From Bacteroidota bacterium (lineage in GTDB: Bacteria; Bacteroidota; Bacteroidia; Chitinophagales; LD1), in assembly GCA_947475165.1 (NCBI GenBank), contig CANJLD010000027.1:1-46098 (forward strand): a DNA stretch of 46,098 nt, read 5' to 3'. A model generated the notes under the pieces. That model ran no database searches. It had not been told where the DNA came from and worked only from the letters and a program-made list of their open reading frames with translations. The translations under genes were made by a program, and so were the position numbers. This document shows, one piece after another, positions 3,617 to 45,897 of this stretch. Every line of letters begins with the position of its first letter. The first letter of the stretch is position 1.

Positions 3617-3678
3617 CTATTCTGCATTTTGTGTTCATTCTCAAATCTTCATATTATCATATCCTCAAATAAATTTAC

Positions 3679-4476
3679 ATGCGGGCATTAGGAGTTCTTG
3701 ACAAAATGAAAACCGGCTTTATTAATCCGGTGCAGTATTTTTTGCAATTAGGCGATGATAAGATTGCTGTCAACGAATTGGTGGGTAATAATATCCGCTT
3801 GCAATGGACCGGTAGAATTTTCTGCACAGTTTGTAACAAGAAAATAGCTAAGAGTTTTGGCGAAGGCATGTGTTACGATTGTTTTGCCAATGCTCCGAGT
3901 AATGCAGAATGTATTCTCCGCCCCGAATTATGCGAAGCGCATTTAGGAAAGGGAAGAGATATTGAATGGGAAAAGCGCAATCACCTGCAACCGCATTATG
4001 TTTATCTCGCTCAGACAAATACAATTAAAGTAGGTGTAACGCGCGGAGACCAGATTCCAACCCGTTGGATTGACCAAGGTGCGCATAAAGGAATCATCAT
4101 TGCAGAAACTCCTTATCGTCAACTCGCAGGTTTTATCGAAATTGTTTTGAAAGAGCACATGAGCGATAAAACCAATTGGCAACGAATGTTGAAGAACGAA
4201 CCTGCTGTTGGAATTGATTTGTTAGAAGAAAAGAAAAAAGCAATTGCACTATTGCCGGAACAATACCATCAATATGAATCTGCGAATAACGAAATAGTTG
4301 AACTGATTTATCCGGTGCAGCAATATCCTGTTAAGGTAACTTCGCTTTCATTCGAAAAAATGGCGAGTATAGAAATGAAGCTAACCGGTATACGCGGGCA
4401 GTATTTTATTTTTGAAGGAGGAAACGTTATTAATATCCGTAGTAAAAGCGGGTATGAAGTTGAGTTGATTGCTTAA
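3679..4476 (+). CDS. DUF2797 zinc-ribbon protein
   Basis: A 265-residue cytoplasmic protein that matches the DUF2797 family, whose biochemical role is not established. A four-cysteine zinc site is visible as C49-x2-C52 and C65-x2-C68. After it, YVYLAQTNTIKVGVTRGDQ (residues 107 onward) resembles the two-strand core of GIY-YIG nucleases, but I do not see a complete catalytic set. There is no signal peptide or membrane segment. It follows lolA by 62 bases on the same strand and overlaps the last 4 bases of the convergent pyrD. Family assignment is firmer than any functional guess. Confidence 0.8.
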   Translation: MRALGVLDKMKTGFINPVQYFLQLGDDKIAVNELVGNNIRLQWTGRIFCTVCNKKIAKSFGEGMCYDCFANAPSNAECILRPELCEAHLGKGRDIEWEKRNHLQPHYVYLAQTNTIKVGVTRGDQIPTRWIDQGAHKGIIIAETPYRQLAGFIEIVLKEHMSDKTNWQRMLKNEPAVGIDLLEEKKKAIALLPEQYHQYESANNEIVELIYPVQQYPVKVTSLSFEKMASIEMKLTGIRGQYFIFEGGNVINIRSKSGYEVELIA

Positions 4477-5513
4477 TTTCTCTTTATCAATGCGCGGTTA
4501 ATATCAGCAATCAATTGTGGTCCGCTATAAATAAATCCAGAATACAGTTGTATTAAATCTGCTCCTGATTTGAATTGCTCAAATGCATCTTGCACATTCA
4601 TAATTCCACCAACTCCAATTATTTCTACATCTGATTTCTGATTTCTGATTTCTGATTTCAAATGTTGAACAACTTCCGCTGCTCTTTTAGTCAAAGGTTT
4701 ACCACTTAAGCCACCGGCTCCAAAATTTTCTACTTCTACAGGAGTATAGCTTAATCCTTCTCTCGAAATAGTTGTATTCGTAGCAACAATTCCCTGAATT
4801 TTAGTTTGCTGAACAACAGTTACTACATCATCTATTTGTTCGTTGGTTAAATCGGGTGCAATCTTTAGCAAGATTGGTTTTTGTTTTGGCTTCGAGAGGT
4901 TAATATCCTGCAAGGAATTTAGAATAGAGGTGAGCGAATCTTTATCCTGCAAGGCACGGAGACCCGGTGTGTTAGGAGAACTTACATTGACTACGAAATA
5001 ATCAGCATAATCGAAGAGGGTTTTGAAACAGTATTCGTAGTCGCGAATTGCGTCTTCGTTACTGGTTACTTTATTCTTGCCGATGTTGGCACCGACTATA
5101 ATGTTTGTCTTTCTGCGCTTTAGTTTTTGTGCGGCTACTTCAGCTCCCACATTATTAAATCCCATCCGGTTGATAAGGGCTGCATCTTTTACCAAACGGA
5201 ATAATCTCGGTTTATCATTCCCCGGTTGAGGCTTAGGTGTAACAGTTCCTATTTCAACAAACCCAAAACCAAGCCTTCCCATTTCATCAATTACATCGCC
5301 ATTCTTATCTAAGCCCGCAGCTAAGCCAACCGGATTTGGAAAATCAATTCCAAACAGATTGCGATGCAATGATGGATGCTCTACGCTTCCTGCAACGAGT
5401 TTAAGCAGGAAAGGCAGTTTGCCTGCTAACTGAAGATTGTGAACGGTGAAATGGTGTGCTTCTTCAGGGTCAAGTTGAAACAGAAGTGGTTTGAGAAGCG
5501 GATATAGATTCAT
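4473..5513 (-). CDS. pyrD: Dihydroorotate dehydrogenase (quinone), class 2
   Basis: This enzyme oxidises dihydroorotate to orotate in pyrimidine synthesis and passes electrons to the quinone pool. At 346 residues it has the class 2 N-terminal extension (MNLYPLLKPLLFQLDPEEAHHFTVH) that forms the quinone tunnel and membrane patch. The FMN barrel motifs are clear: NPVGLAAGLDKNG, GFVEIGTVTPKPQPGN, RLFRL, NRMGFNN, VNVSSPNTPGLR with the catalytic Ser of this class, KIAPDLT, TNTT, GGLSG, and the C-terminal IIGVGGI and LIQLYSGFIY. The stretch before IIGVGG is encoded by four 7-bp repeats (4630-4658), giving an unusual SEIRNQKSD loop. It converges on the DUF2797 gene. Confidence 0.95.
   Translation of the reverse strand: MNLYPLLKPLLFQLDPEEAHHFTVHNLQLAGKLPFLLKLVAGSVEHPSLHRNLFGIDFPNPVGLAAGLDKNGDVIDEMGRLGFGFVEIGTVTPKPQPGNDKPRLFRLVKDAALINRMGFNNVGAEVAAQKLKRRKTNIIVGANIGKNKVTSNEDAIRDYEYCFKTLFDYADYFVVNVSSPNTPGLRALQDKDSLTSILNSLQDINLSKPKQKPILLKIAPDLTNEQIDDVVTVVQQTKIQGIVATNTTISREGLSYTPVEVENFGAGGLSGKPLTKRAAEVVQHLKSEIRNQKSDVEIIGVGGIMNVQDAFEQFKSGADLIQLYSGFIYSGPQLIADINRALIKRN
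4630..4658. repeat. Four tandem copies of a 7-bp repeat inside pyrD
   Basis: TCTGATT is repeated four times without change inside the pyrD reading frame. The unit length is not a multiple of three, so successive copies are read in different frames and encode KSEIRNQKSD. The copy number looks prone to slippage, and a change of one unit would shift the frame. Confidence 0.85.
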
Positions 5514-5595
5514 GCCGCAAAGAAAAACTCTTTCAACTATTTACCGAATAGATTAAATAATTGGCGATTTCTTCCCCGTCAATAAGGGCATTAAA

Positions 5596-5626
5596 AAAGG
5601 ACTCCTGGCTTAACTAGGAGTCCTTT
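5596..5626. terminator. Bidirectional terminator, surface protein side and pyrD upstream
   Basis: AAAGGACTCCT (5596-5606) pairs perfectly with AGGAGTCCTTT (5616-5626) across a 9-base loop, with A-rich and T-rich flanks. It lies 20 bases after the stop of the surface protein gene, which reads on the minus strand, so it most likely ends that transcript before pyrD. Confidence 0.85.
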
Positions 5627-5646
5627 AATATCAATCCACATTTAAA

Positions 5647-8600
5647 CTACTTCGAAGTTTTTCCGCTGTAGGTTTTATCTCCGTCTGTAATTTTAAATAT
5701 ATACATACCGGTGTTAAGCGATGTAGCAATAGTGTTTAAAGAAGTAGCCGAAAGTTTTTCTTTCACCACTACTTGTCCGGCAGTGTTCATTAACTGAAGA
5801 AAAGGAGAAGTTAAAGTTGAACCAGTTAAATCAACCATAAAGTTGCTTGCGTTCCAGTAAGCTTTAATCGTTTCGTTTCCTGTTTCGTTCACACCGTTTG
5901 GTGCGGTAACAATTACTACTACTTCTTGCGAAATAAGTGCATCGTTAGCCGTATTCTTCGATTCGCAGATAATGTAATAAGTGCTCACCAAATTAAAGTG
6001 AGGTATCAAACTGCTTCCGGTTTCTGTCGGATTAAAAGCAGTATAACTCAAACCCGATACTTCAGAATACTTCCAAACACGCGTTGCCGTTTGCGATTCG
6101 GTTACTGCTATTCCAATCCCATTCTGTCCCTGAGTAAGATGTTGTGTATCTGTTGGAGCAATAGAAATTTCGAAAGGATTAACCGTAAGGTTAGTTCCAT
6201 TATCGCTGCCGGTTATAGCAGGGTCGCTTGATACTACACGAATACGGTAAGCAGTTCCACCCGGACTTGAACCCGGAATGTTAGCACTGATAGTTCCGAT
6301 AGTTGTACCACTCAATGTTCCTATCGCAACCAGATTGGCAAAACTGCCGGTGTAATCAGAAAGTTGCGCAGTAAACACATTGCCTGCATTAAATACAGCA
6401 TCTGATGTAAAGTTTACACTCACCGGTGCACTCATACTTGGCGAAACCTCGAAAGGTGAACCGGTAACAGCAGAAGTAGTGATAGTTGTGCCGTTGGTTA
6501 CAATTATTTGCACTTCGTTGCTGGTTACTTCATCGTTGTAAGTGTTTTTAGAAACAGCCACTACATAGTAAGTTCCCGGAGTTGTAAAGTTAGGAGTATA
6601 AGAGCTGCCGGTTTCTGCCGGAGAAAAACTTACATATCCGCTTCCGCTGGTAGTAGTGTATTTCCATTCTTCGGTAGAAGTTTGTGAAGCAAAAACAGCA
6701 AGTGCCGTTCCGTTTACACCGTGCATAATAGTTTGTGTGTTTGCCGGAGCAACCGAATTATTAAACTGGTCAATTACAATATCAGTTCCGTTATCACTGC
6801 CAATCAATGCAGGGTTCGAAGACGTTACGCGAATACGGTAACCGGTTCCGGCTGCTGTGTTTGAAGGAAGATTAACCTGAATATTACCCGATGTGGTAGC
6901 AGGAATTGAACCCAAATAGAAAGCACTTGCAAAAGAACCATTCGCATCCGATAGTTCTGCTGTAAAATTATTTCCGTTATTAAATGTTCCACTGGTAGTA
7001 TAAGGTATAGTTATAAGCGGGTCTGGTGCGCTTGGGCTGAATAAGAAAGGCGAACCTGTCACCGCACCGGTAGCCAAGGTTGCATTGCCTACCACAATTA
7101 AAACTTCATTGCTGAACACCGTTACACCGCTAATCAAACTTTGGCAAACTACATAGTAATTGCCAGCCGAAAGAAAATTAGGAGTATAAGTAGTCACTCC
7201 CGTAATTGGAGTACCGAAAGAAACATAAGGTCCGCCCGAAACAGTAGCATATTGCCATTCGCGCCAGTTGCCTGCCGGAGTTTCTGTAACAGTAAGTGGC
7301 GTTCCGTTTACGCCTACCAAAATACTTTGCGATGAAGTTGGCGCAATACTATTGCTCACCACATTCACCGTTACTTCGCTCGAAGTAAGTGTAAGACCTC
7401 CCGAAAAACTTGAAACACATACTACATAGTAAGTTCCAGCATTGGCAAAGTTGGGAGTATAAGTAGTGCCGGTTTGTGTTGGAGCAAAACTCTGGTAACC
7501 GCTTCCGCTAACGGTAGAATATTTCCACTCGCGCGAAGTAGCCGCTGGCGTTTCAGTAACCGTTAACACACTCCCATTCGTATTTGCCGCAATAGTTTGT
7601 GTAGTTAAAGGAGCCACCGAAGCACTAACTAAAGTAATGCTGATATCAGAAGTATTAACCGCAGCCGTTAAAGCCGGACTATTGCTTCTTACTCTTATTC
7701 TGTAACCGGTACCGGTTGGTGTTCCCGCAGGTATAGTAGCCGAAATAGTTCCCGAAACACTCGAAGTTACCGTACCTATATTACTTGGAAAAGCAAATCC
7801 GCCACTGGCATCTGATAGTTCAGCAGTAACCGTATTCCCTCCGCCAAAAGTTCCGGCAAGAGTATAAGGCACACTTACACTAGCACCTTGCGCTGCGCTT
7901 ACATAATAGGCAAGTGGACTGATTGTTCCTGTAGCAATAGTTGGGTTATAAATAACATCATAATCATCGAGCCAAAGTGTACTGTTTTGTTGAGCAGTAG
8001 CAGTAGCACCCGAAGAAGTGGAAGTAATTAATATGTATTGTGGAGTTGTGCCGTTACGATAAACAAACGGAACCGAAACTCTCGTCCATGTTCCAACTGT
8101 AGCATTAGCTCCCTGCCATTTAGCACGGGCTACAATGTTAGCAGTATCATTTGGATGATTATTATTAACCGGAATTTCCGGTGCCTGGCAACCATTAATA
8201 TGTATACGTGCCTCTACCGAAGGATAATCTACACCAACTGCTGTGTACCTGTACCAAAACACTAAGCTATCCGGTCTGCCGGTAAACGACATTCTAAAAT
8301 TAGCATCTGTAGTAACGGTTTGAATAAAACCTTCGGCAGGCGTGGTAGAAGGAACGGTTACCTGACCGGTAGTAAGTGCCCCGTTTACGTTGTTACCCAA
8401 AGTATTTCCGGTAACCAGTTTTGCACAATAAGTTCCTCCATGCGGGTTGGTAGCTTCGCGCCAGCAGGTTTGCGGTGCAAAACCTCCAAATGAGCCACCG
8501 GCACTTTTGGTAGAGTTCCATTGCGTTGGCTCAGCAGTATTGGAAGTCGGGTTCGTCCAACTCTCCATACTGCCGTTTGTAATTGTAGTTTGAGCAGATA

Positions 8601-8649
8601 TATGGAGCGATACAATAGCTGCAAAAACAAGAAGTAAAGTCTTTTTCAT
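5647..8649 (-). CDS. Large modular T9SS-secreted surface protein
   Basis: The 1000-residue product starts with signal peptide MKKTLLLVFAAIVSLHISAQ. Residues about 20-235 form a jelly-roll-like region (ITNGSMESWTNP...WLDDYDVIY), reminiscent of carbohydrate-binding folds. Two module types then alternate. Type A (about 100 residues; FTAELSDANGSF, GTGYRIRV, NPAL) occurs three times. Type B (about 90 residues; SVAPxxTQTI, EWKYxTVSGSGY, GTYYVVxxS) occurs four times. The last about 80 residues (YWNASNFMVDL...LNTGMYIFKITDGDKTYSGKTSK) are a type A T9SS sorting domain. The frame stays open upstream to 9048 through a repeat array, but the signal peptide and the promoter at 8671-8701 fix the start at 8649. 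No catalytic motif is seen, so a structural or adhesive role is inferred. Confidence 0.88.
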   Translation of the reverse strand: MKKTLLLVFAAIVSLHISAQTTITNGSMESWTNPTSNTAEPTQWNSTKSAGGSFGGFAPQTCWREATNPHGGTYCAKLVTGNTLGNNVNGALTTGQVTVPSTTPAEGFIQTVTTDANFRMSFTGRPDSLVFWYRYTAVGVDYPSVEARIHINGCQAPEIPVNNNHPNDTANIVARAKWQGANATVGTWTRVSVPFVYRNGTTPQYILITSTSSGATATAQQNSTLWLDDYDVIYNPTIATGTISPLAYYVSAAQGASVSVPYTLAGTFGGGNTVTAELSDASGGFAFPSNIGTVTSSVSGTISATIPAGTPTGTGYRIRVRSNSPALTAAVNTSDISITLVSASVAPLTTQTIAANTNGSVLTVTETPAATSREWKYSTVSGSGYQSFAPTQTGTTYTPNFANAGTYYVVCVSSFSGGLTLTSSEVTVNVVSNSIAPTSSQSILVGVNGTPLTVTETPAGNWREWQYATVSGGPYVSFGTPITGVTTYTPNFLSAGNYYVVCQSLISGVTVFSNEVLIVVGNATLATGAVTGSPFLFSPSAPDPLITIPYTTSGTFNNGNNFTAELSDANGSFASAFYLGSIPATTSGNIQVNLPSNTAAGTGYRIRVTSSNPALIGSDNGTDIVIDQFNNSVAPANTQTIMHGVNGTALAVFASQTSTEEWKYTTTSGSGYVSFSPAETGSSYTPNFTTPGTYYVVAVSKNTYNDEVTSNEVQIIVTNGTTITTSAVTGSPFEVSPSMSAPVSVNFTSDAVFNAGNVFTAQLSDYTGSFANLVAIGTLSGTTIGTISANIPGSSPGGTAYRIRVVSSDPAITGSDNGTNLTVNPFEISIAPTDTQHLTQGQNGIGIAVTESQTATRVWKYSEVSGLSYTAFNPTETGSSLIPHFNLVSTYYIICESKNTANDALISQEVVVIVTAPNGVNETGNETIKAYWNASNFMVDLTGSTLTSPFLQLMNTAGQVVVKEKLSATSLNTIATSLNTGMYIFKITDGDKTYSGKTSK

Positions 8650-8670
8650 TTTCTGTTTTTTGATTCGGGC

Positions 8671-8701
8671 GAAAAATACGCATCTAAAATAAACTCGCAA
8701 G
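8671..8701 (-). promoter_or_regulatory. Bacteroidota-type promoter of the modular surface protein
   Basis: On the minus strand CTTG (8701-8698), a 19-base spacer and TATTTTTC (8678-8671) resemble the TTTG-N17-23-TAnnTTTG consensus with one mismatch in each box. The -7 box lies 21 bases before the chosen ATG at 8649, and this supports that start. Confidence 0.5.
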
Positions 8702-8770
8702 TTTTTTATAAACACAACCAAATAATAAAAACCTTCGAAAAGGAAAAGTAACCTACTTAAAACCAGAGAA

Positions 8771-9063
8771 AGCTTCCGAAAGGGAAAAGGAAGCATCCCC
8801 GACCGAAAAGGATGCTTCCGAAAGGGAAAAGGAAGCATCCCCGACCGAAAAGGATGCTTCCGAAAGGAAAAAGGAAGCATCCCCGACCGAAAAGGATGCT
8901 TCCGAAAGGGAAAAGGAAGCATACCCGACCGAAAAGGATGCTTCCGAAAGGGAAAAGGAAGCATCCCCAACCGAAAAGGATGCTTCCGAAAGGAAAAAGG
9001 AAGCATCCCCGACCGAAAAGGATGCTTCCGAAAGGAAAAAGGAAGCATCCCCGACCAAAAAGG
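8771..9063. repeat. 42-bp hairpin-bearing tandem array (seven units)
   Basis: GGAAGCAT recurs at 8789, 8831, 8873, 8915, 8957, 8999 and 9041, an exact 42-base period. Each complete unit carries GGAAGCATCC and its inverse GGATGCTTCC separated by 11 bases, so every unit can form a 10-bp hairpin. The two halves are also imperfect direct repeats of 21 bp. Units differ only at a few positions (GGGAAAA or GGAAAAA, CCGA or CCAA, one ATCC to ATAC), which suggests recent expansion. The array lies between divergent genes, about 70 bases upstream of the promoter of the large surface protein. Because 42 is a multiple of three, frames on both strands stay open, but none looks like a real protein. Confidence 0.95.
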
Positions 9064-9148
9064 AAGGTTCTTTGCTTAATAAATAACTATACTGGTACAC
9101 ATGTAACAGTTACATTGTTTTTTATACTTGTATCACCAATCCATCTTC

Positions 9149-9733
9149 ATGAAAAATTTGCTGCTTCTCTCCTGCCTCACTATCTCGCTTTGTATTTCAG
9201 CCCAAAACGATACGTCCGTTTTTAAAAACATAAAACATATAGAAGCCAACGAATACACCTTCCGGGTGCCTGAAAAATGGACGGCTTACTTGCAGCAGCA
9301 AAACGGACCACAGTTGCAGAAATTAGAATTTACCGATGTTGCCATTCCGCATGTGTTGAACAACGCACCGCTAACCGCCATCTGCCTTTTCCGCAAAATA
9401 GGTTGCGACAGTATTATAGCTGCACAAACATTTGCAGTAGCCGAATTTTCTTCCTACCCCGACCGGGTTACCCCAGCCGGTCGCGATTATGAAATGGACT
9501 CACTTACGATTGTCAGCGGTGAAAAAGCCATCCTTTACCACACCCATTATTACCGCAGAAGCAAGGCAAGTAATTTCACCCGTTACGATATGGTGGTGTA
9601 TTCCGAAAAACGAAAAGCCGCTTACTGGTTTACCACAACCTACCAATACAAAGACCCTACTTACCAAATAGAGTTTGACCTTAAGCTAAAGGAATACGCT
9701 CTGCGCATTTACAAAACTTTGGTGCTGCGGTAA
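9149..9733 (+). CDS. Secreted protein of unknown function
   Basis: The 194-residue product starts with signal peptide MKNLLLLSCLTISLCISAQ. The in-frame ATG at 9128 would put seven extra residues ahead of it, so 9149 is preferred. The mature part has mixed alpha/beta composition with the pattern YTFRVPEKWTAYLQQ near its start, as seen in small Bacteroidota proteins related to PsbP or DUF-type secreted domains. The evidence does not allow a family name. No lipobox, metal site or T9SS tail is seen. It is transcribed away from the repeat array and followed by a short palindromic element. Confidence 0.75.
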   Translation: MKNLLLLSCLTISLCISAQNDTSVFKNIKHIEANEYTFRVPEKWTAYLQQQNGPQLQKLEFTDVAIPHVLNNAPLTAICLFRKIGCDSIIAAQTFAVAEFSSYPDRVTPAGRDYEMDSLTIVSGEKAILYHTHYYRRSKASNFTRYDMVVYSEKRKAAYWFTTTYQYKDPTYQIEFDLKLKEYALRIYKTLVLR

Positions 9734-20940: not shown

Positions 20941-21129
20941 TAGTATTAGGGGGTTACCGGTGCAAAGCCACCGGTCGGGCTTTCCGCTACAATTTTTTTT
21001 GCTCCCCTTACAAACGTCATTGCGAGGCTCTGCGAAGCAATCCCCTCAATCGTAAGTGTGCCTGTCGCGCAACAAGCAAAAAAAGATTTCCGCTACTATC
21101 CCTAACCCAACAGCCAAATACAACAGCCC
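20941..21129. repeat. Repeat-rich junction between menB and the res gene
   Basis: This 189-base stretch holds no gene. It has two ACCGGT sites at its left end, a GGGCTTTCCGCTACAA block (20977-20992), a perfect second copy of the ACGTCATTGCGAGG element (21014-21040), and a related GATTTCCGCTACTATCC block (21085-21101). The TTCCGCTAC blocks look like the two halves of a dispersed Bacteroidota intergenic repeat. Together they form the left boundary of the restriction-modification island. Confidence 0.6.
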
Positions 21130-27301: not shown

Positions 27302-27419
27302 AAAAGAAATTCACCCAAAATGCACCGTAAAAGCACATTTTTGCCTCAAAACTGTGGAAATCTCGATGTTTTAACATCAAAATCACTCGTCTACTACCCT
27401 AAACCTGCTGTAGTCCTGA

Positions 27420-27629
27420 CAAATTTTCCTGGGGTCGTCTCAAATTCCTTTGGGGACAGGTCAAATTTTCCTGGGGACGACTCAAATTCATCGGGGGACG
27501 ACTCAAATTCCTTTGGGGAACGCTCAAAATCCTCTGGGGACGTCTCAAATTTCCTTGGGGTCGCCTCAAATTCCTCTGGGGACTTCTCAAATTCCTTTGG
27601 GGTCGCCTCAAAATCCCTTGGGGACTCCC
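27420..27629. repeat. 21-bp tandem array, about ten units
   Basis: CAAA recurs at 27420, 27441, 27462, 27483, 27504, 27525, 27546, 27567, 27588 and 27609, an exact 21-base period. The unit approximates CAAATTCCTTTGGGGACGWC with variation in the last four bases. Several frames on both strands are open through it and give seven-residue repeats (SNSSGDD on plus, EFESSPE on minus), but none has a convincing start or a conserved partner domain. It lies upstream of the promoter of the 342-residue protein gene. Confidence 0.95.
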
Positions 27630-45832: not shown

Positions 45833-45897
45833 CTTGTTATTTTTTCCTTGCCTACTCTTTGTTCAGCTTTTCGGCTTACGCTGTTTATTTTAAAAAA

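Follow-up and report, generated by a model that had tools for sequence, protein, structure and literature searches.

Eukaryotic satellites combine a fixed monomer length with diverging sequence, higher-order units and rapid turnover, and in iteron and parS arrays protein-binding sites about 20 bp long follow one another in tandem on the same face of the helix, with one sequence per system. The tandem repeats of archaeal Borgs were described (PMC9879509) as many, independently formed, fast-evolving and of unique sequence within one genome, and partly intergenic; their units were perfect and A-enriched, 43-65% were in ORFs, and 14-38% of the intergenic unit lengths were divisible by three. REP elements were described (PMC3733652) as families defined by sequence, tagged with GTAG or CGTC and tied to RAYT genes, and for phased A-tracts an ~11-bp periodicity, linked to curvature and concentrated between E. 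coli genes, is reported (PMC516772, PMC3940949).

The window (the whole stretch of DNA analysed, 46,098 nucleotides) contained the tandem array under study, which is listed with its neighbouring features in Table 1. TRF reported a 42-bp period with 7.0 copies, 96% matches, 0% indels and a score of 544. A previous sequence-only reading had described seven near-identical units at a 42-base period, each with a 10-bp inverted repeat and two imperfect 21-bp halves, that differed at a few positions and lay in the divergent gap ahead of the promoter of a T9SS surface protein, and this anatomy was borne out. The GGAAGCATCC arm was present in 6 exact copies (at 8789, 8831, 8873, 8957, 8999 and 9041), with GGAAGCATAC in its place as a mutated arm in the seventh unit, and the GGATGCTTCC arm in 6 exact copies from 8810 to 9020; GGAAGCATCC and GGATGCTTCC were exact reverse complements, spaced 21 bp within a full unit. 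The two 21-bp halves were identical at 14 of 21 positions, and 7 substitutions and 0 indels were counted over 295 bp. The flanking genes started at 8649 (-) and 9149 (+). The site that we take to be promoter-like on a Bacteroidota consensus was unique at its threshold within 8640-9160 on both strands, and the Por_Secre_tail match of the surface protein (2.3e-4, Pfam) was under the curated cut-off.

Table 1. Features of the window with their positions, strands and the basis of each assignment
Feature	Position	Strand	Description and basis
Array under study	8772..9064	none	7.0 x 42-bp units = 14 monomers of 21 bp; GGAAGCATCC / GGATGCTTCC on alternate monomers; TRF, motif positions
Possible decayed array edge	8725..8771	none	Same 21-bp register, AACCTTCGAAAAGG, AAAGTAACC and so on; an ungapped family of repeats spaced 21 bp apart extends to 8725, and reading by eye; weak
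Surface protein gene	5647..8649	-	PCMD domain (Pfam 4.1e-11), T9SS-type C-terminal tail, signal peptide by eye from translation
Divergent gene, 194 aa	9149..9733	+	Without Pfam match; matches in 9/17 other genomes of the genus
Promoter-like site of the surface-protein gene	8671..8700	-	TTG-N19-TATTTTTC, 1 mismatch; outside the array, between array and gene
Second array of the class	27418..27629	none	21/42-bp period, consensus CAAATTTCCTTGGGGTCGCCT / CAAATTCCTCTGGGGACGTCT; TRF and core limits
Flavo-1 RNA	20969..21119	-	Rfam match, 54.4 bits
DUF805b motif	45849..45884	-	Rfam match, 46.6 bits

Against its own genome, the array DNA matched itself and one weak relative (66%), and among 59 other genomes weak relatives were found in 2 (70% and 73%); the weak relatives were themselves arrays of ~21-bp period with other sequence. 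A genome search for the 10-bp pair, to which the previous reading had pointed, gave 2 further matches in 798 kb, about the chance level. The second array of the window had its own sequence and was also located between divergent genes. With 7.0 head-to-tail copies, the array under study falls among intergenic minisatellites, taken here as at least 3 such copies of a 10-100 bp unit outside genes. A CRISPR identity was rejected, the units being contiguous and near identical without unique spacers, and so was a viral origin, with 0 exact 31-mer matches in viral_contigs.

An 844-kb sample of the genome of the window (G000) was scanned with an autocorrelation detector, which returned 29 clusters, 23 of them at exact multiples of 21, together with one of 41 bp and one of 43 bp. 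A two-base-block shuffle of this sample gave zero clusters; in two further sample groups the shuffled controls produced 4 and 1 clusters, and those groups contain 4 and 1 contigs reading N. After one in-gene and one doubtful array were dropped, 23 arrays remained whose period departed from a multiple of 21 (21n) by at most 1 bp; were the sample representative, this would extrapolate to ~106 in the whole genome. When 444 kb of the same genome were run through TRF, 25 of 79 rows had period 21 and 11 had period 42 (rows overlap). Core lengths ranged from 78 to 436 bp, equal to about 4 to 21 monomers per array, and higher-order units of 42, 63, 84 or 105 bp were common.

Near-21n arrays were also found in G010 (6 in 100 kb), G005 (3 in 80 kb, one doubtful at a contig end), G009 (2 in 200 kb), G001 (1 in 17 kb), G004 (1 in 60 kb) and G017 (1 in 37 kb), and, beside the genus samples, in the named MAG RH-23may17-913 (L062; 2 in 21 kb). 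No such arrays were detected in G013 (80 kb), G014 (98 kb) and G016 (100 kb), in the same-family genomes G018, G019, G023 and G025 (236 kb together), in G031 of the same order (40 kb), or in G002, G003, G006, G011 and G015, where samples of merely 10-24 kb mean that the zeros say little. Because several genomes showed arrays of this kind, an assembly artefact is unlikely. A PyrD comparison put the host among uncultured Bacteroidota close to Chitinophagales: 21 loci were found, and the 13 with the highest similarity (74-87%) belong to uncultured MAGs titled Bacteroidetes, Chitinophagales or Sphingobacteriales bacterium. Both hits in G007 were one CRISPR; in that genome, L040 carried a long CRISPR-like array at 3668-7943 with ~63-bp spacing, the repeat of which is presumably of Cas12a type.

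The near-21n class count leaves out the named loci L055 (84 bp, in an ORF), L070 (105 bp, Burkholderiaceae, in an ORF) and L069 (Flavisolibacter, one short 21-bp stretch). L016:6243-6502 (126 bp, in a long ORF) was dropped from the dyad, curvature, register, word, pair, context, terminator and folding counts, and the doubtful L020:3752-3878 (63 bp) from the word, array-pair, context, terminator and sister-array folding counts; folding was counted for 31 of 33 sister arrays, the two dropped being shorter than two units. At L024 5540-5900, a faint 21-bp pattern with ATTGAATGA on one side and inverted GTCATTCAAT ~250 bp on is perhaps a decayed array.

Outside long ORFs, the best period of 44 of 49 arrays differed from 21n by no more than 1 bp (binomial p 6e-32 vs 3/21), and inside long ORFs this held for 1 of 9. 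The set of 49 was drawn from the genus samples and L062, with the two CRISPR rows of L040 left out; the period analysis includes the doubtful L020:3742-3888, a doubtful 83-bp array at a G005 contig end, and four arrays from loci fetched by place (L156, L182, L220 and L257) at a lower threshold. Judged by eye, two of the five exceptions were collagen-like repeats truncated where the sequence ended, and the other three were a coding-like repeat rich in lysine, a pair resembling tRNA and a low-complexity run of 14 bp. The scan covered periods from 12 up, and no period was found near odd helical turns of at least 3 (31-32, 52-53 bp and so on), so that the ruler looks like 21 bp and not helical phase alone. 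The off-multiple periods were 41 (twice), 43, 83 and 104, all within 1 bp of 21n. A 41-bp unit rather than 42 was seen in different species at L079 1859-2121 and L147 15562-15875, and a 43-bp unit at L023 11629-11825. The property conserved across arrays and species is the 21-bp spacing, not the sequence. The window array, with a period within 1 bp of 21n, a location outside long ORFs and a sequence that is not class-wide, very probably belongs to this class, and the exact 21-base spacing shared by arrays of differing sequence suggests a putative protein or process that measures 21 bases.

Since 21 nt equal 7 codons, coding heptapeptide repeats were weighed as an origin of the period. The window array was open in all six frames, with an ORF from 9048 spanning it into the surface gene, and its coding status was therefore judged from context alone; against coding, the surface gene has a signal-peptide-like start at 8649. 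Stops were present in all six frames in 8 of 35 arrays, and because three does not divide the periods 41, 43, 83 and 104, codons are not the cause of the period. Closed frames and these periods refute coding repeats for the class, and we give this origin next to no credence.

Wrap-around alignment of 34 arrays (7,875 bp) gave 1,115 substitutions, which comprised 763 distinct column states, and 16 indel events; 10 of these indels were five insertion/deletion pairs and two others were at array ends. On general mutation spectra, rather than a neutral rate of this genus, several times more indels might be expected, and the low indel counts may partly reflect the youth of the arrays and a detector that favours intact register. 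At L182 2600-2949 (G004), three successive monomer types followed one 21-bp register with a CGATT-like start common to them, and in L004 two blocks of different monomer type were in one register, their dyad centres being separated by 126 bp (6 x 21). In pairwise comparison, 32 of 666 array pairs exceeded every one of 150 column permutations in similarity, where 4.4 would be expected, and 19 had z above 4; these formed remote families (e.g. the window array with G017 L134 and with L019), most pairs being at chance level. A motif common to all arrays was sought and rejected, as only partial families emerged, such as those with the words CGGAA (9 of 37 arrays vs 1.2 expected) and AAAGGAA (4 of 37 vs 0.07 expected).

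Six orthologous sites were compared, with the flanking genes named by eye from translations, and at 3 of them a second species had an array whose sequence was unrelated to the first. These were the nifS gap (array in 1 of 15 genomes, p 0.96), the MATE gene gap (1 of 13, p 0.70) and the PorW-like gene gap (1 of 17, p 0.48), each with an array in 21-bp register. The gap of the window's plus-strand gene had an array in 0 of 8 other genomes (L045 has a two-copy 21-bp repeat elsewhere in the flank), the potassium channel gap in 0 of 14 (G004 has one at the gene's other end) and the desaturase gap in 0 of 14; some compared flanks end at contig ends, as in G017, where the MATE gene retains 43 bp of flank. 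Because G000 has roughly nine gaps of 100 bp or more for every array, the site coincidences are not clearly above chance, and conservation of array sites is a lead only. As most genus-mates examined were without an array there, no array is essential in those gaps.

The main rival explanation is a selfish or neutral satellite, in which spacer DNA is amplified locally by an enzyme or repair process that is peculiar to the lineage and has a 21-bp ruler, and the arrays are functionless with fast turnover. The patchy presence and the replacement at orthologous sites agree with it, as do the observed higher-order repeats of 84 to 126 bp, the occurrence of arrays in any gene orientation, and the lack of arrays in the 236 kb from the four family-level genomes. 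Among diverged two-copy repeats outside arrays in G000 (units 16-44 bp), the unit was 21 bp in 3 of 4 in spacers, also in its favour, and in 2 of 4 in ORFs. No exact 21-bp tandem duplication outside arrays was found in the 844 kb, although such a process should leave fresh ones, and one exact 20-bp duplication was present; with fresh exact duplicates absent, 21-bp slippage all over the genome is disfavoured, and the three diverged ones leave room for it. The register kept in much-diverged arrays is also not easily explained by a satellite without function. On this evidence, the satellite origin is a serious possibility, though we lean against it.

Dyads were enriched in the arrays (14 of 34 at p<=0.05, Fisher 7.5e-10), and a stricter palindrome score gave 9 of 34 (Fisher 4.9e-5); they were absent in several arrays, e.g. 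L015, L014, L102 and L103. The predicted bend, for which we assumed the wedge parameters, averaged 0.59 degrees per bp in arrays vs 0.21 in random genomic 250-mers. This difference is what would be expected if intrinsic curvature alone were at work, with 21-bp tandem bends adding in phase and the resulting curve (e.g. a plectoneme tip) being selected. Such selection should favour odd multiples of 10.5 equally, but none were seen; no 10/11-bp half-repeat was present in the arrays (lag identity 0.23), and the bend per monomer exceeded that of column-permuted controls only slightly, reaching p<=0.05 in 6 of 34 arrays. The curvature follows from the period and is not clearly selected, and the absent odd-turn periods together with the weak bend excess led to its rejection as sole cause; the explanation is accordingly rated improbable.

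Gene contexts were taken from simple ORF calls, not annotation, and L076 and L086, the flanks of which were not both assigned, were left out. The placed G000 arrays (n=21, window array included) were distributed over 8 convergent, 5 divergent and 8 tandem gaps, while the comparison gaps of at least 100 bp without an array (n=169) were 15% convergent (a share given as 15-18%), 27% divergent and 57% tandem. Several sister arrays adjoin genes that look housekeeping by eye. The paralogous secreted proteins at L077 17224-19260 and L079 2179-3858 (QWDKRFGG repeats, by eye) each have a 3'-end array of different sequence.

The sequence-only reading had interpreted the array as a copy-number-variable, phase-like control region of the surface-protein gene. 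Its near-identical units and its position ~70 bp upstream of the promoter-like site are in keeping with this, and the array may have such a role at the window locus alone. Phase-variable repeats are linked to promoters or gene starts; the class is not, with 8 of 21 arrays in convergent gaps against 15-18% of the other gaps. The sister-array contexts do not fit regulation of one gene as the general role, so that of the earlier interpretation the anatomy stood and the control of the neighbouring gene as a general meaning was not supported. The binding-site array that was also proposed there may be correct. As an account of the array, a control region is an unlikely one.

The same reading had offered an RNA structure in a long leader; a long structured leader is unlikely because the probable surface-gene promoter is outside the array, on the gene side. 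An RNA-level element, either a transcribed hairpin array or a terminator, would agree with the very strong fold of the window array, which was far above its column-permuted copies on both strands (0 of 60 permutations reached it on either), and with 17 of 31 sister arrays that beat z -2 relative to permuted copies on the better of two strands. Read-through is possible at 24 of the 36 gene 3' ends facing an array, for which no intrinsic terminator was found; at the other 12, however, a terminator lay ahead of the array, and a terminator-like site was within the array for just 2 of 36. The window array is located between divergent genes and several arrays lack a hairpin. This 3'-end survey disfavours terminators or RNA elements as the role of the class, and we consider them very unlikely. 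The context points to a DNA-level role or none, with transcription of some arrays possible.

The reading that we prefer, at a probability of roughly 0.4 for the model as a whole, is a footprint model in which the arrays form a phased nucleoprotein scaffold of a putative protein in spacer DNA; the 21-bp footprint of such a putative DNA-binding protein is tentatively proposed as the reason for the spacing. The window array is very probably one of roughly a hundred satellite-like spacer arrays of 21-bp monomers in its genome. Each monomer may be the footprint of one protein unit, probably a dimer given the frequent dyads, and the protein would read spacing or shape more than sequence. Neighbouring units would align on one helix face and give a phased, bent nucleoprotein stretch, which could serve nucleoid or supercoiling architecture, or insulation between genes. 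The arrays presumably grow and homogenise through unequal exchange or slippage in whole monomers, and insertions or deletions that break the register would be lost. Side-by-side binding of a protein whose unit spans two turns would account for a spacing that stays at 21 bp while the sequence is free to vary; it would also explain why 41 and 43 are tolerated, why odd-turn periods are missing and why dyads are common.

Counted in favour of the footprint model were the 44 of 49 arrays near 21n, the missing odd-turn periods, the few indels, the shared register, the enriched dyads, the unrelated arrays at three sites, the lack of exact 21-bp duplicates outside arrays and the predicted bend above that of random genomic DNA. 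It is weakened because some arrays are without dyads, the bend per monomer is weak, arrays are missing in most orthologous gaps, and the number of HU copies does not follow array density (2 in G000, 3 in G010 and 1 in G017; 2 in each of the array-poor G013, G014 and G016). It is weakened further because the 3 of 4 diverged spacer repeats with a 21-bp unit could be array births by a 21-bp process. More speculatively, a genus with chromosome-wide spacer arrays set by a physical 21-bp ruler could represent the DNA side of a hypothetical packaging or boundary system, in which a protein polymerises in two-turn steps and sequences are freely replaced while the register is kept.

Compared with eukaryotic satellites, the arrays described here are bacterial, with 21-bp monomers, about 4 to 21 per array in G000, at many small loci, and unlike iteron or parS arrays those of one genome differ in sequence. 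They share helix-phased spacing with phased A-tracts, but no 10/11-bp repeat is present here, and whole 21-bp monomers are repeated, A-tract or not. The Borg repeats are the nearest description found and resemble the 21-bp arrays in being many unique-sequence tandem repeats in one genome; they have perfect units and lie about half in ORFs, whereas here the units diverge, the period is locked to 21n and nearly all arrays are outside long ORFs (with CRISPR left out, 1 of 45 near-21n arrays was in one). REP/BIME elements (PMC3733652) are likewise short palindromes, usually between genes, that can cluster. Unlike them, the 21-bp arrays have no sequence common to all, and the window array, with itself and one 66% relative as matches, is not a palindrome dispersed in its genome. 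Y1_Tnp (RAYT) gave one weak match in G000 (9.8e-8), and its counts in 30 genomes did not follow array density; a RAYT/REP origin is on this count less likely.

Among the papers listed, a partial literature judged by titles and abstract openings, no recognisable description of 21-bp-locked intergenic arrays in Bacteroidota was found. A sequence-free 21-bp ruler is, to our knowledge, not known from any other system. The known kind to which the arrays belong is that of intergenic minisatellites, and the new feature is the sequence-free 21-bp ruler. Bacterial repeat classes are normally recognised by shared sequence, and a class defined by period only would escape sequence searches; its cause, be it a protein or a process of amplification that has a 21-bp ruler, would offer a new way into the organisation of bacterial chromosomes or the birth of satellites.
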